A program made the translations under genes and the position numbers. Shown here in pieces: positions 12,404 through 54,366 of a stretch of 64,000 nucleotides of DNA. Numbering within the stretch: position 1 is the stretch's first letter; each line of letters begins with the position of its first letter. The notes beneath the pieces are model-generated. The model was not told the origin of the DNA, did no database searches, and saw only the letters and a list, made by a program, of their open reading frames with translations. This DNA comes from an uncultured Pelagibacteraceae bacterium (GTDB taxonomy: Bacteria; Pseudomonadota; Alphaproteobacteria; Pelagibacterales; Pelagibacteraceae): assembly GCA_902592655.1 (NCBI GenBank), contig CACJFE010000003.1, positions 1 through 64,000 of the forward strand. Reading direction: 5' to 3'.

Positions 12404-14221
12404 TTACTCTACAGTAACTGATTTAGCTAAATTTCTTGGTTTATCTATATCACAACCTTTTAAGAGAGCTACGTGATATGCTAATAGCTGTAATGGTATT
12501 GTGAGCATGATGGGAGATAACAAATCACCTAAAAAAGGGACCCTAATTCCAGATCTTATATTTTCACTGATCAAACTTTTTTTATTATCAGTAATGAAAA
12601 AAATTTTTCCTCCTCTTGCTATTACCTCTTGCATATTTGACAATGTTTTTTCAAAGTATTTATCCTTTGGAGCGATTACAATCACTGGCAAACCTTCCTC
12701 TATTAAAGCTAGAGGGCCGTGTTTCATCTCACCGGCAGGATAACCCTCGGCATGCAAATAAGATAACTCCTTCAGCTTAAGAGCACCTTCTAATGCAATT
12801 GGAAATGATGATCCTCTACCAAGAAACATTGAGCCTTTAGCTTTTAAAAATTCTTTAGCCATTAATTGAATATTTGTCTCAGTCTCCAAGCATTTTTTTA
12901 ATTTTTCGGGAATCTTTTTTAAATTTTCAATGCTTAAACTATAAAAATCACTTGAAATATTATTTCTTAAAGACGAGATTTTTAAAGATAATATATATAA
13001 TACTATTAATTGTCCCAAAAAAGCTTTTGTTGAAGCTACCCCAATTTCTGGACCTACGTGAATTGGTAAAACCCAGTCAGCATTTCTTGCAATTGTACTT
13101 TCAACTACATTTACAATTGAACAAGTTTTGACATTATTTTTTTTGCAAATGTCCAAAGCTGCTGCTGTATCTGCGGTCTCTCCCGATTGAGAAACAAATA
13201 TATAAAGGTTTTTTTTATTAAATTTTATTTTTCTATATCTAAATTCTGAGGCTATATCTATTTCAACTTCAACATTTGTTAACTCTTCAAACCAATATTT
13301 TGCAACTAAACATGAATGATAGGCTGTACCACATCCAACTAAAATAATTTTATTGATTAGTTTTGGATCAATTGGAAAATTATAAATATTAATATCTTTT
13401 TTTAAACTATCAATATATTCACTTATACATTTTTTTGCTGCTATAGGCTGTTCGAATATTTCTTTAGACATAAAATTTTTGTAACTACCTTTATTTGAAG
13501 TATTATCTTCATCTGAAACTAAATGGATCTTTTTATTAATCTTTTTTTGTTCAGTGTCATAAAAATCAACTCTATCTTTTGTTAAAACACATAATTCACC
13601 ATCATCTAAATATGAAATCTTATTTGTCATAGATTTAAGAGCGTAGGAGTCAGATCCTAAAAAATTTTCTTGTTCTGAGTACCCTACTGCTAATGGACTT
13701 CCTCTCCTAGCCCCAATAATTATATTTGAAAAATTTTTAAATATAATTCCTAATGCAAAACTACCTTTTAACTTTTGTATTGTTGTAAATACTGCATTAA
13801 GAGGATTTGACTCTTTTAAAGCCTCAGTAATTAATAATGTAATAACTTCTGTATCTGTTTGAGATTTAAATGCTAATCCCCTATTCTCCAGTTTTTTTTT
13901 TAATTCATCAGAATTTTCTATTATACCATTATGAACAACTGAAACTTCTTCTGTAGAGTGCGGGTGAGCATTAATTGTACTTGGAGTTCCATGAGTAGCC
14001 CACCTAACATGACCAATTCCAATATTTCCATTAGATGGTGTTTTAAAAAGAATCTTTTCAAGCTCATCCACTCTTCCAGAGCATTTCTTTTCATTGATAA
14101 ATCCGTCAGATAAAGTTGCAATACCAGCTGAGTCGTACCCTCTATACTCTAATTTCTTTAAGGAATTAATAATATTTACTGAGACAGGTTTATTGCTAGC
14201 TATACCAATTATTCCACACAT
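12404..14221 (-). CDS. glmS: glucosamine-fructose-6-phosphate aminotransferase
   Basis: A 605-residue GlmS. The N-terminal glutaminase starts MCGIIGIA, so Cys2 becomes the catalytic N-terminal Cys after Met removal. Two SIS domains follow with SQSGETADT and the closing DKPRNLAKSVTVE. It makes glucosamine 6-phosphate for peptidoglycan and lipid A. It begins two bases after the GlmU-type acetyltransferase gene, which acts two steps later in the same pathway, so the pair forms a UDP-GlcNAc unit. Confidence 0.96.
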   Translation of the reverse strand: MCGIIGIASNKPVSVNIINSLKKLEYRGYDSAGIATLSDGFINEKKCSGRVDELEKILFKTPSNGNIGIGHVRWATHGTPSTINAHPHSTEEVSVVHNGIIENSDELKKKLENRGLAFKSQTDTEVITLLITEALKESNPLNAVFTTIQKLKGSFALGIIFKNFSNIIIGARRGSPLAVGYSEQENFLGSDSYALKSMTNKISYLDDGELCVLTKDRVDFYDTEQKKINKKIHLVSDEDNTSNKGSYKNFMSKEIFEQPIAAKKCISEYIDSLKKDINIYNFPIDPKLINKIILVGCGTAYHSCLVAKYWFEELTNVEVEIDIASEFRYRKIKFNKKNLYIFVSQSGETADTAAALDICKKNNVKTCSIVNVVESTIARNADWVLPIHVGPEIGVASTKAFLGQLIVLYILSLKISSLRNNISSDFYSLSIENLKKIPEKLKKCLETETNIQLMAKEFLKAKGSMFLGRGSSFPIALEGALKLKELSYLHAEGYPAGEMKHGPLALIEEGLPVIVIAPKDKYFEKTLSNMQEVIARGGKIFFITDNKKSLISENIRSGIRVPFLGDLLSPIMLTIPLQLLAYHVALLKGCDIDKPRNLAKSVTVE

Positions 14222-14223
14222 TA

Positions 14224-14868
14224 TTATTTGCTTTTCCTTTTATAATTTTTCACTTCTGCTTGAGATGATCTAGTTAAAGCAAGTGAATTTTTCTTTACAT
14301 TTCTTGTTATTACTGACCCGGCGCCAATTATGCTTTTTTTTCCTAATATTACTGGTGCAACTAATGAGCTATTTGAACCAACAAAAACTTCATCCGAAAT
14401 TTTTGTTCTATATTTTTTTATACCATCATAATTACATGTAATTGTTCCAGCTCCAATATTTGATTTATTCCCAATGATAGTGTCACCAATATAAGAGAGG
14501 TGGTTTACTTTAGAGTTATTTCCTATGTTTGATTTTTTAGTTTCAACAAAATTTCCTATTTTTGAATTTGTTTTTAAAACAGTTCCCTCTCTTAATCTAG
14601 CATATGGGCCAATGGTTACATTTTTTTCAATTTTTGCTCCCTCAACATGGGTGAATGATTTTATATAAGAGTTATCTCCAATTTTTACTTTGGGTCCAAA
14701 AACAACATAAGGCTCAACAGTAACATTTTTTCCAAATATAGTGTCTTTAGACAAAAAAATTGTTTCGGGTGCGATTAAATTTACACCTTTTTTTAAAGCT
14801 TTGTTTCTCAAAAGTTCTTGTTGAAGGCGGTATGAGTTTGCTCTTTTTAATTTATTATTTGTATTCAT
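14224..14868 (-). CDS. stand-alone GlmU acetyltransferase domain (left-handed beta-helix)
   Basis: From the ATG at 14868 the protein has 214 residues and matches only the C-terminal half of GlmU (normally about 450). It begins at the linker helix and continues through hexapeptide repeats. Catalytic-type residues are all present: ARLREG (Arg93), VETKK (Lys111), [11 protein letters not shown] (His123, Tyr126), and [14 protein letters not shown] (Asn146). It should acetylate glucosamine 1-phosphate with acetyl-CoA. The N-terminal uridylyltransferase domain is absent; upstream DNA is occupied by the divergent phosphatase gene. A longer frame to 14982 exists but would overlap that gene and adds no conserved sequence. 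Confidence 0.85.
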
Positions 14869-14939
14869 TAAAATTTTCTTTACATTAATATTGTAATTGA
14901 AATAAGTCACAAAATATTTCTTTTTAATACTTTTTAAAA

Positions 14940-15602
14940 ATGACTCAAATATACACCATTCTTTTTGATCTTGACGGAACAATAGTTAATACGGCTCCTG
15001 ATCTTATGGCGGCACACAATCATGTGATGAGAAAGTATGGTCACACAGAGAAAAGACTTGAGGATATCAAATCATTGGCAGGGAGAGGAGCATGGGTAAT
15101 GATGCAAAGATCATTTAAAGAGGAAATTAAAGATGAAAAAATGAAAAAAGAAATGACAAAAGAATTTATTGATTTCTATTCAAAAAATATTGACCGAAAT
15201 AGTATTCCTATTGATGGGTCTATTGATTTTTTTAAATGGGCTAAAAGTAAAAATATTTCAATGGCAGTTTGTACAAATAAACAAGAAAAATTAGCTGTGG
15301 ATTTATTAAAAAAATTAGATATTTATAAATACTTTGAGTATGTCGCTGGATCGGATACTTTTTCATACAACAAGCCAGATCCTAGACATCTTACGGATGT
15401 AATTGAAATAATTGGTGGAGACTTAAAAAAAACTATGATGATCGGTGATAGTGAAGTCGATGCAACTTCGGCACATAATGCAAACTTACCATTTGTTCTA
15501 GTCAGAGAAGGGTATACTGAAAAAACTGAAGAAGAAATAAAACATGATGAAGTCATTTCTGATTTTATAGGATTTGAAAAGATAATTCAAAAATATATAT
15601 GA
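14940..15602 (+). CDS. gph: HAD-family phosphatase, phosphoglycolate phosphatase-like
   Basis: A 220-residue HAD hydrolase with the nucleophile motif FDLDGT (Asp10, Asp12), motif II AVCTNK, motif III Lys in YNKPDPRHL and motif IV GDSEVDA. The cap insert between residues 15 and 85 gives the Gph-type alpha-helical cap. Phosphoglycolate is the most likely substrate, but this subfamily is promiscuous. It is divergent from the glmU-like gene, 71 bases apart if the short start of that gene is used, and overlaps the next gene by four bases. Confidence 0.82.
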
Positions 15603-30455: not shown

Positions 30456-31898
30456 ATGAAAATCAATCCAAATGGTTTTAGAGAGTACGACGCTAGGTGG
30501 GTCTTTGAAAAAGATATCGATATTGAGGGAATCACTAATTTAGGCAAAGGCCTTGGAACTCAAATAATAAGTCATACCAAAAAAAATAATCCGAGAGTAA
30601 CAGTTGGTCATGATTATAGGTCATACAGTGAGAAAATCAAAAAAGCTTTAACTGAGGGTTTAATTTCAACTGGATGCAATGTTGAAGATGTAGGTTTATC
30701 TCTTTCTCCAATGGTTTATTTTGCTCAGTTTAATTTAAATTCAGACGCAATAGCTATGGTAACTGCTAGTCATAATGAAAACGGTTGGACAGGAGTTAAA
30801 ATGGGCATTCAAAAAGGTTTAACACATGCACCAGAGGAAATGGCAAACCTAAAAGATATCACTTTAAATGAAAAATTTTTAAATGGAAAAGGTTCAGTAA
30901 AAAAAATTGATGATTTTAAGGACGTATATATTCACGATTTAATAAAGAAGAATAGATTAAATAAAAAGATTAAAGCTGTAGTTGCTTGTGGAAACGGGAC
31001 GGCAGGAATATTTGCACCGGAAATTTTAAAAGGTATTGGATGCGAAGTCATAGAATTAGATTGTAATTTAGATTGGTCATTTCCAAAATATAATCCAAAT
31101 CCTGAAGATCTTGAAATGCTCCATGCTATTTCAAAAGCTGTAAAAGATAATAAAGCAGATATTGGATTTGGTTTTGATGGAGATGGAGATAGATGTGGAG
31201 TCATAGATGAGCAAGGAAATGAGATATTCTCAGATAAAATTGGGTTACTAATTGCAAGAAATCTTTCAAGTAAACATAAGGATTCAAAATTTATCGTTGA
31301 TGTAAAATCGACTGGGCTATTTAAAAATGATAAAATCTTGAAAGAAAATAATTGCGAAACTATATATTGGAAAACCGGACATTCACACATCAAAAGGAAA
31401 GTTAATAAGGAAAAAGCATTAGCAGGTTTTGAGAAGAGTGGGCATTTTTTCTTTAATCAACCTTTAGGTTATGGTTATGATGATGGGATTAATTCAGCAA
31501 TACAAGTTTGCCGCCTCATCGTAGATCAAAATAAAAAAATGAGTGAAATTATAAGATCATTACCAGTAACTTATCAAACCCCAACAATGGCTCCTTATTG
31601 TAAAGATGAAGAGAAATATAAAGTAGTTGATGAAATGGTAAAAGAGGTAAATAAATTAAAAGATGAGGATATTAAAATTGATAATCAAAGTATTATAGAA
31701 GTATTGACAGTTAATGGTGTGAGATTTTCCCTAGAGGATGGGTCATGGGGCTTAATAAGAGCATCATCAAATAAGCCTTCTTTAGTTATTGTGACTGAGA
31801 GCACCAAATCTAATGAGAGTAAAAAAAAAATATTTGAATTTATTGATAATCTTTTACAAAAAACTGGAAAGATTGGAGATTATGATCAAAAAATTTAG
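30456..31898 (+). CDS. phosphomannomutase/phosphoglucomutase
   Basis: A 480-residue alpha-D-phosphohexomutase. The phosphoserine motif is TASHNENGWTGVKMG (about residue 104), the metal loop is FGFDGDGDRCGVID (about 238-250), the sugar loop is GFEKSGHFFF and the phosphate-binding end is RASSNKPSL. It interconverts hexose 1- and 6-phosphates for nucleotide-sugar synthesis, feeding the surface-sugar genes further right. Length and motifs fit AlgC/ManB-type enzymes with dual specificity. It ends tail-to-tail with the next gene (four-base overlap). Confidence 0.88.
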   Translation: MKINPNGFREYDARWVFEKDIDIEGITNLGKGLGTQIISHTKKNNPRVTVGHDYRSYSEKIKKALTEGLISTGCNVEDVGLSLSPMVYFAQFNLNSDAIAMVTASHNENGWTGVKMGIQKGLTHAPEEMANLKDITLNEKFLNGKGSVKKIDDFKDVYIHDLIKKNRLNKKIKAVVACGNGTAGIFAPEILKGIGCEVIELDCNLDWSFPKYNPNPEDLEMLHAISKAVKDNKADIGFGFDGDGDRCGVIDEQGNEIFSDKIGLLIARNLSSKHKDSKFIVDVKSTGLFKNDKILKENNCETIYWKTGHSHIKRKVNKEKALAGFEKSGHFFFNQPLGYGYDDGINSAIQVCRLIVDQNKKMSEIIRSLPVTYQTPTMAPYCKDEEKYKVVDEMVKEVNKLKDEDIKIDNQSIIEVLTVNGVRFSLEDGSWGLIRASSNKPSLVIVTESTKSNESKKKIFEFIDNLLQKTGKIGDYDQKI

Positions 31899-52474: not shown

Positions 52475-53500
52475 ATGAAAAAAATCATAGTAACAGGAGG
52501 ATCGGGTTTTATAGGAAGCAATTTAGTAAATTTTTTAATTAAAAAAAAATATTTTGTCATAAATATTGATAAACTTACTTATTCATCAAATAAATACGAT
52601 GATAAAATTAGGACTAAAAAAAATTATAAGCTCTTTAAGTTTGATATAAACAATACTTCAAGATTGATTAGTGTAATTAAAAAAACTAAGCCTTTAGTGA
52701 TATTTAATTTAGCGGCTGAGACACATGTTGATAGATCTATAGATAGTCCAAAAACATTTATTCATTCAAATATTAATGGCGTATTTAGTTTATTGGAAAG
52801 CTTGAGATATTTAAAAAAAAAGAATATTAGTACAAAATTAATTCACATTTCTACAGATGAAGTCTATGGAGACTTAAAAAATAATTTAAGATCTAATGAA
52901 AATTTTAAATATGAGCCAAGTTCACCATACTCAGCTTCTAAAGCTAGTGCTGATCATTTGGTGAAATCGTACATAAGAACATACAAGCTTAATGCGGTAA
53001 TCTCTAATTGTTGTAACAATTATGGTCCATATCAATTTCCAGAAAAATTAATACCCAAAATGATATCAAATATCTTAAAAAATAGAGAGCTGCCAATTTA
53101 CGCCAGAGGTAAAAACTCTAGGGAATGGATACACGTAGATGACCATTGTGAAGCCTTATTCACGCTATATTTGAAAGGTAAATCAGGAGAAAGTTATAAT
53201 GTAGGTACAGGTATAAATTTGAAAAATATTGATTTAGTAAAAAAAATTCTGAAAAATTTTAAAATAAAAAAAATAAAGATAGGAAAAAAGGTAAAAATCA
53301 AATTCGTTAAAGATAGGCCAGGCCACGATTTTAGATATGCACTAGATAATAAAAAAATTAAAAAAGAATTAAAATGGAAACCGAAGATCAAATTTGAGGT
53401 AGGAATTAGTAATACTATAAATTGGTATTTAAAAAATAAAATATTTTTAAAAAAAATAGCAAAAAATAAATATGAAAAAAGATTAGGTTTAAACTTATGA
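52475..53500 (+). CDS. rfbB: dTDP-glucose 4,6-dehydratase
   Basis: A 341-residue extended SDR with the RfbB pattern: VTGGSGFIGSNLVNFL, NLAAETHVDRSID, HISTDEVYGDL, YSASKASADHLVKSY, NNYGPYQFPEKLIP and REWIHVDDHCEA. It converts dTDP-glucose to dTDP-4-keto-6-deoxyglucose. rfbA overlaps its end by four bases. The lysine-rich C-terminal region reflects the low GC. Confidence 0.93.
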   Translation: MKKIIVTGGSGFIGSNLVNFLIKKKYFVINIDKLTYSSNKYDDKIRTKKNYKLFKFDINNTSRLISVIKKTKPLVIFNLAAETHVDRSIDSPKTFIHSNINGVFSLLESLRYLKKKNISTKLIHISTDEVYGDLKNNLRSNENFKYEPSSPYSASKASADHLVKSYIRTYKLNAVISNCCNNYGPYQFPEKLIPKMISNILKNRELPIYARGKNSREWIHVDDHCEALFTLYLKGKSGESYNVGTGINLKNIDLVKKILKNFKIKKIKIGKKVKIKFVKDRPGHDFRYALDNKKIKKELKWKPKIKFEVGISNTINWYLKNKIFLKKIAKNKYEKRLGLNL

Positions 53501-54366
53501 TTAAAAAAGGAATTATCTTAGCAGGTGGATTAGGGACAAGAATGAGCCCTCTTACAAAAGCAGTCAATAAACAACTGCTTCCTTTATATGATAAGCCTTT
53601 AATATATTATCCATTATCTGTTTTGATGTTAGCAGGAATAAAAAATATTTTAATAATTGTAAACAAAGGTCAATTAAGTCAATTCAGAAAAATATTACCT
53701 GAAAAAAATAATTTAGGCATAAATATCCATTATAAAGAACAATCAAAACCTAGAGGACTGCCAGATGCTTTCTTGATCGGAAAAAACTTTATTGGTAAAG
53801 ATAATGTTGCTTTAATTCTAGGTGACAATTTTTTTTACGGGCAAAATTTTTCTTCTAAATTAAAGAAATCTGTTAAATTAAAGTACGGTGCTCAAGTTTA
53901 CCTGCACCCCGTTAATAATCCAAATTTATACGGTGTTGCAACAACTAACAAGAAAAATAAAATTTTAAAAATTATAGAAAAACCAAAAAAAACTAAATCA
54001 AATTTAGCAGTTACAGGAATATATTTTTTTGACAATAATGTTATTGATTTGAGTAAAACCTTAAAACCTTCAAAAAGAAATGAATTGGAAATAGTAGATC
54101 TTTTAAATAAATATAAAAAAAAGGGTAAACTTAAAGCTGAATTCATTGGAAGAGGAGGAGCTTGGCTAGATACAGGAAATATTGAAGATTTTTACAACAC
54201 ATCCAACTTTGTTGCTGCAATAGAAAATAGACAAGGGCTCAAAATAGCTTGTTTAGAAGAAATAGCTTTTGTAAATAAATGGATTGAAAAAAAAGATATA
54301 TTAAATGCTATAAAATTTTACGGTAACTGCAACTACTCAAAATATTTAAAGAGATTTTTAAATTAA
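53497..54366 (+). CDS. rfbA: glucose-1-phosphate thymidylyltransferase
   Basis: A 289-residue nucleotidyltransferase: KGIILAGGLGTRMSPLTKAV, NKQLLPLYDKPLIYYPLSVL, the LGDNFFYG metal site, TGIYFFDNNVID and GRGGAWLDTGNIEDFYN. It makes dTDP-glucose from glucose 1-phosphate and dTTP. With rfbB it supplies the 4-keto-6-deoxy intermediate; rfbC is not in the window. Confidence 0.94.
   Translation: MIKKGIILAGGLGTRMSPLTKAVNKQLLPLYDKPLIYYPLSVLMLAGIKNILIIVNKGQLSQFRKILPEKNNLGINIHYKEQSKPRGLPDAFLIGKNFIGKDNVALILGDNFFYGQNFSSKLKKSVKLKYGAQVYLHPVNNPNLYGVATTNKKNKILKIIEKPKKTKSNLAVTGIYFFDNNVIDLSKTLKPSKRNELEIVDLLNKYKKKGKLKAEFIGRGGAWLDTGNIEDFYNTSNFVAAIENRQGLKIACLEEIAFVNKWIEKKDILNAIKFYGNCNYSKYLKRFLN

Follow-up and report, generated by a model that had tools for sequence, protein, structure and literature searches.

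In summary accounts, GlmU is usually presented as a single essential bifunctional enzyme and as a drug target, and the first step of its pathway is performed by GlmS. Close to it stand GalU, the UTP:glucose-1-phosphate uridylyltransferase, which in E. coli barely uses GlcNAc-1-P, and MurU, whose substrate is the 3-O-lactyl derivative of GlcNAc-1-P and whose known representatives are specific for MurNAc-1-P. ST0452, an archaeal dual sugar-1-phosphate nucleotidylyltransferase, reportedly serves Glc-1-P and GlcNAc-1-P alike and has a beta-helix domain of its own, both activities residing in one protein, whereas the arrangement proposed here for SAR11 would place them in separate proteins. Full-text searches of the open-licence literature, at the level of titles and abstracts, returned no earlier report of a GlmU split in SAR11. 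In the set analysed here, the majority of the SAR11-type ocean bacteria retain the acetyltransferase half of the enzyme alone.

The locus lies in a stretch of 64,000 nucleotides (the window) of contig CACJFE010000003.1, from an uncultured Pelagibacteraceae bacterium, in which the following features are relevant:

12404..14221, minus strand: glmS, glucosamine-6-phosphate synthase, assigned from its own sequence and its place in relatives
14224..14868, minus strand: glmU-C, predicted stand-alone glucosamine-1-phosphate N-acetyltransferase (ATG start, 214 aa), assigned from a model match and alignment
14869..14939, no strand: gph/glmU-C intergenic gap, delimited by the positions of the reading frames and comparison with full-length relatives
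14940..15602, plus strand: gph-type HAD phosphatase, the divergent neighbour of glmU-C
30456..31898, plus strand: PgmG-type phosphoglucomutase/phosphomannomutase, not GlmM, assigned from an NCBIfam-type model match
53497..54366, plus strand: rmlA, glucose-1-phosphate thymidylyltransferase, assigned from a model match

The glmU-C protein is the left-handed beta-helix acetyltransferase half of GlmU, with an activity predicted from its sequence. It shares with bifunctional GlmU (TIGR01173, PRK14353) the C-terminal beta-helix acetyltransferase, the catalytic residues and the gph and glmS neighbours, whereas the uridylyltransferase domain is absent, given that it covers positions 223-450 alone of the 452 of TIGR01173 and reaches 246.1 bits against a curated cut-off of 366.85. 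The original prediction, which had placed the beginning of the similarity at the linker helix, with the N-terminal half missing, agrees with this result, as the first ~25 residues align to the linker helix of full-length GlmU, and alignment with the full-length relatives shows that the truncated genes start inside this helix. The five residues said to be kept are indeed identical in an alignment with 3fww (a solved GlmU of 456 aa), where the chain number equals the glmU-C residue plus 240 across the active site: Arg93 corresponds to Arg333, Lys111 to Lys351, His123 to His363, Tyr126 to Tyr366 and Asn146 to Asn386, which, in E. coli numbering, are presumably the active-site residues of the GlmU acetyltransferase. 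A 252-aa reading frame with a TTG start at the same locus was rejected as an over-extension across the 14869..14939 gap.

The glmS gene starts 2 bp downstream of glmU-C, and the order of the divergent gph, glmU or glmU-C, and glmS is the same in 43 loci (41 genomes), whether the N-half is present or absent. As the N-half coding sequence of the full-length relatives begins after a gph gap of a similar kind, and the gene order is kept, the N-half was evidently lost in place. The divergent phosphatase that had been recognised upstream is confirmed as a HAD-type gene, which also adjoins full-length glmU and is therefore an old neighbour that did not displace the N-half. Both the gene order and the gene tree support the descent of glmU-C from the glmU of the ancestral locus. 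The glmM gene lies beyond the window, above its curated cut-off (G000:C4:70568-71878), and exceeded this cut-off in all 28 genomes tested.

The distribution of the two forms was surveyed with TIGR01173 in 148 genomes of the Pelagibacterales (SAR11), which comprise one family of 130 genomes, divided into the groups g1 (14), g3 (106), g4 (2), g6 (2), g2 (2) and g5 (4), and a second family, f2, of 18. No full-length GlmU was found in any of the 124 genomes of g1, g3, g4 and g6, of which 111 carry the C-half alone, including all eight single-contig genomes, and 13 carry neither half. Among the g2, g5 and f2 genomes, 23 of 24 have a GlmU above the curated cut-off (2/2, 4/4 and 17/18, respectively), so that the comparison of relatives which had been suggested did recover the full-length gene. 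The full-length copy elsewhere in the genome that the original prediction had named as evidence against itself appeared in none of the 124, nor was one found in the rest of the window's own assembly (950 kb, 80% complete), which bears out the claim that UDP-GlcNAc synthesis needs a separate nucleotidyltransferase.

In the 13 genomes without either half (for example, G054, G057 and G129), a C-half query gave best E-values of 1e-6 to 1e-8, and 1e-77 in two control genomes; as all 13 are multi-contig and 90-96% complete, the absence of both halves is probably due to missing sequence. A longer GlmU match in G086 was rejected, given that it crosses six stop codons and that, by eye, the C-half begins after a stop codon and is preceded by no GlmU-like sequence. 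Of 80 loci from named records, 28 belong to close relatives, and 27 of these have the C-half only (195-214 aa), the one full-length gene being that of isolate CP.2. The AM1_bin-0028 copy, one of the 27, is identical to that of G044 in the GlmU-C gene tree, where two copies from Candidatus Pelagibacter ubique fall next to g3 genomes. Six other lineages that were singled out are all full-length, and the remaining 46 loci comprise 42 of at least 400 aa and four shorter ones, two of which reach the end of a contig.

When f2 is used as the outgroup, g1, g3 and g6 form one clade (the main clade), which holds the window, and g4 stands apart. A concatenation of seven proteins that includes rpoB places g4 beside the full-length g2 and g5 (support 100/99), and one common clade of the truncated genomes is rejected (p-AU 0.000013); rpoB alone gives the same result (p-AU 0.00014), with g4 again beside g2 and g5. 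Without rpoB, the rejection is weaker (p-AU 0.0156), g4 is basal within the family and the f2 rows are only 32% filled. The GlmU-C gene tree largely reflects descent, with g4 next to the full-length g2 (93/91) and a separate main clade (96/88); it agrees on the two truncated groups, and differs in the placement of g5, which falls with the main clade (81/84). Since the trees reject one truncated clade, the N-half would have been lost at least twice, in the main clade and in g4. Two losses are the simplest reading, the alternative being a single loss after which some lineages regained the N-half.

TIGR01173 detected no stand-alone GlmU N-domain in the window's genome or in the 148 genomes of the order, nor did PF00483 in 16 genomes or PF12804 in 17. 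The original prediction is thus upheld in that the two activities have been separated and that another nucleotidyltransferase is needed, and not in its suggestion that they had been split into two genes. The eukaryote-type UDPGP model (PF01704) matched none of the 148 genomes, and gave no match in the control genomes either. In the complete genome G011, PF00483 and PF12804 together detected six proteins: ManC, GalU, MurU and MobA, which were named by the best NCBIfam model, with only ManC passing its cut-off, plus two named from length and profile only, the first IspDF-sized and the second KdsB-sized. Of these families, GalU and MurU alone are established users of UTP, and they are the only UTP-type sugar nucleotidyltransferases found in G011. 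In 10 truncated genomes, GalU, MurU and the KdsB-sized protein were each found in 10/10, and the ManC-sized and IspDF-sized proteins each in 9/10, this shared set being mostly assigned by size and profile.

Several other candidates for the missing uridylyltransferase were set aside. RmlA has no PF00483 match in the complete genome G011, and proteins of the RmlA, CBS-domain nucleotidyltransferase and glucose-1-phosphate cytidylyltransferase types are sporadic and lie in clusters of a sugar or O-antigen-like kind, as does an unnamed 250-aa gene of G009. MobA-like genes are absent from the PF12804 matches in G003, G000, G037, G064 and G062. A takeover by an existing sugar nucleotidyltransferase, which in the window's clade is most likely GalU, would read better than a split of the gene.

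GalU (E<=1e-45) is found in 123 of the 130 genomes of the family with the losses and in none of the 18 of f2, the family without loss; the residues were read from 121 of these matches, the other two being fragments with stops. The main-clade protein is similar to GalU in matching TIGR01099 over its whole length, in its GxGTR and VEKP motifs and in its ugd neighbour, ugd and panC adjoining galU in each of 22 genomes inspected (the window's own and those of 21 other loci). The VEKP motif, which holds the Glc-1-P-binding Lys, is present in the GalU of the window's genome, and several relatives have IEKP. The protein of the window's genome scores 257.6 bits against the curated TIGR01099 cut-off of 326.8, which does not separate the lineages, because none of the 148 genomes passes it.

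The main-clade protein differs from GalU in four replacements, K21S, L109T and Y168W, each in 113/113 members, and Q227H in 112/113, with one member retaining Gln227. These positions are K, L, Y and Q in all eight GalUs of g2, g5 and g4 (both g4 copies being canonical) and in all 14 outgroup GalUs, which come from Bacillota, Pseudomonadota and Actinomycetota (two records being without annotation) and were picked for spread, avoiding pathogens, among 40 listed of the 74 matched records. Among 44 columns that are invariant in the eight and at least 90% conserved in the 14, only at these four do 90% or more of the 54 clade members read carry another residue, and a fifth conserved column, Pro24, has Ala in 29 of the 54.

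A profile alignment places GalU 109 opposite the Thr in the GTG motif of GlmU, and Lys21 opposite a Ser of GlmU. Among 59 rows of full-length GlmU, Thr stands opposite 109 in 59, Ser opposite 21 in 57, and Tyr opposite 168 in 59 and opposite 227 in 56, so that K21S and L109T yield the residue of GlmU, and Y168W and Q227H, where GlmU has Tyr at both sites, do not. Counted along the alignment, the GTG Thr has the number 82 in GlmU chains of 456 aa, and this position, with GalU 109, is presumably near the C2 group of the sugar; a contact of residues 21, 168 and 227 with the sugar is putative, being derived from the alignment. Thr89 of the M. tuberculosis GlmU, which faces Asn223 of human AGX1 and is listed as a pocket residue in an excerpt of PMC9105790, would be the same residue as 82 of the 456-aa chains, because both have the same Gln-x4-Gly-Thr spacing. 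The RmlA residue that matches GalU 109 is Leu89 (by counting, with which a HMMER stretch placing query 98 at chain 78 agrees), and an excerpt of the review PMC9415975 states that L89T, among other mutants, widens the tolerance for sugar-1-phosphates. The Leu-to-Thr site is the same in both cases, although the RmlA change is a laboratory mutant of a thymidylyltransferase, and that of GalU is natural and clade-fixed. For two plant enzymes, the activity with GlcNAc-1-P is given as <10% in an excerpt of PMC12203929.

The clade-fixed replacements at conserved columns number 8/91 in GalU, 4/54 in panC, 13/284 in rpoB, 3/107 in gpm, 2/88 in gph, 2/191 in ugd, 0/229 in glmS and 1/56 in murU. GalU (8/91) exceeds the pooled value of 15/800 (p=0.0012), a comparison in which the pooled sets are uneven, and does not exceed panC alone (p=1.0). 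Given that panC, with matched sets, changes at as high a rate, the case for GalU rests on which sites changed, and not on the rate. The three clade-fixed changes of the main-clade Gpm are Y24V, Q93T and Y116W.

The explanation to which we incline slightly is that, after the loss of the N-half in place, the GalU of the main clade was re-specified to make UDP-GlcNAc, with another enzyme fulfilling this role in g4. GlmS and GlmM would make GlcN-1-P, which the free-standing GlmU-C would acetylate to GlcNAc-1-P, to which, in the main clade, GalU would attach UMP. Its sugar pocket may have been reshaped by L109T, making room at the C2 acetamido group, together with K21S, Y168W and Q227H. As galU still adjoins ugd, GalU probably stays bifunctional, acting on both Glc-1-P and GlcNAc-1-P. 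UDP-glucose is the compound used by ugd. Since the GalU of g4 is ordinary, another enzyme would have to serve there, and MurU or a promiscuous GalU may supply the uridylyl step. The loss of the N-half in g4 with a canonical GalU also shows that the half can disappear without the GalU changes, and the four changes, which lie on one branch, are one event rather than repeated evidence. The fuller claim, that the main-clade GalU evolved naturally into a dual UDP-glucose/UDP-GlcNAc pyrophosphorylase through GlmU-like pocket changes, making the N-half dispensable, and that the second loss took another route, has a chance that falls just short of even.

The main rival, above all for g4, is that the MurU of the tsaE-amgK-murU cluster also takes GlcNAc-1-P and replaced the N-half in both lineages, which is unlikely on balance, although it would account for g4 and the main clade together. 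A match to the MurU model (E<=1e-22) is present in 141 of the 148 genomes, at least two of which, G103 and G125, have a longer protein as their sole match; each of the 10 truncated genomes noted above contains a MurU-sized one. The copy of the window's genome is similar to the MurU/AmgK pair for MurNAc salvage in its gene order, with an AmgK-like neighbour, and in its near whole-length match to NF045761, and differs from it in scoring 129.5 against 250 bits, a cut-off that none of the 148 genomes passes. Its usual substrate being a lactyl derivative of GlcNAc-1-P, MurU also has Thr-Gly-Gly at the site of the GlmU GTG, and both g4 copies read LGTGG, the other 25 rows being L(D/N)TGG. On the other hand, AnmK is found in 141 of the 148 genomes, so that MurU probably keeps its ordinary recycling job in the full-length and truncated lineages alike; in addition, the main clade has a replacement in only one of the 56 conserved MurU columns (S109P), and in none of the 26 that remain conserved when f2 is included, and the specificity of known MurU for MurNAc-1-P likewise argues against this role.

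It is rather unlikely that GalU changed for another nucleotide or sugar, its coincidence with the loss of GlmU being historical, a possibility that overlaps with the involvement of MurU and with that of an unrecognised enzyme. The changes lie on a single branch and g4 lost the N-half without them, while Lys21, which is Ser in 113/113 of the clade, is the final residue of the GxGTRxLPxTK motif, described as uracil-binding in an excerpt of PMC6888414 and thus not fully kept in the clade; yet two of the four replacements produce exactly the residue of GlmU, and that at site 109 is the very change said to broaden the tolerance of RmlA (excerpt of PMC9415975). It is improbable that the step falls to a uridylyltransferase whose family was not recognised, or to a gene that escaped the profiles: the search consisted of profiles, with PF01704 silent in the controls too, but PF00483 and PF12804 returned, where the proteins of the 10 truncated genomes were identified, only named families and sporadic cluster genes. 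Finally, it is very improbable that a full-length GlmU exists unseen, with glmU-C as a product of misassembly or a paralogue, and for the clade the TIGR01173 survey refutes this reading. The window's genome is just 80% complete, but the same structure recurs in the 111 genomes, the eight single-contig ones among them, none with a full-length copy, the ancestral gene order is kept, and the gene tree mainly follows descent.

The SAR11-type bacteria have thus discarded half of GlmU, apparently twice, while keeping the surrounding pathway. If the re-specification of GalU is correct, it would represent an essential step whose specificity changed in nature, at named residues, and a case of genome streamlining in which one enzyme covers two jobs, and current annotations of UDP-GlcNAc synthesis in these bacteria may have a gap.

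A number of further observations were made on these genes. Against their NCBIfam cut-offs, the window genome's copies of AmgK and MurU (L007:88-2181 and L085:4179-5108) reach 122/550 and 129.5/250 bits, respectively, and a 309-aa reading frame beside murU in the g4 genome G009 gave no match to this AmgK at E<=1e-6. The S109P change of MurU lies in an N-x-D motif, beside a likely metal-binding Asp. In the single-contig g5 genome G123 (L031, G123:C1:1127763-1129048), glmU consists of two overlapping frames of 94 and 379 aa, the break being a frameshift or a sequencing error within the N-half. Among the non-SAR11 loci, L240 and L276 have GlmU frames of 246 and 296 aa, away from the contig end, which may represent a frameshift or another truncation. 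In a survey of the Alphaproteobacteria, 347 of 389 genomes pass the GlmU cut-off; all six genomes of f35 (each 100% complete) and five of the six of f67, the sixth being without a match, reach about half of the score (E ~1e-62 to 1e-80), and single genomes of f43, f57, f76, f123 and f85 are listed with them. The half-size scores of f35 and f67 may represent further GlmU splits beyond SAR11.
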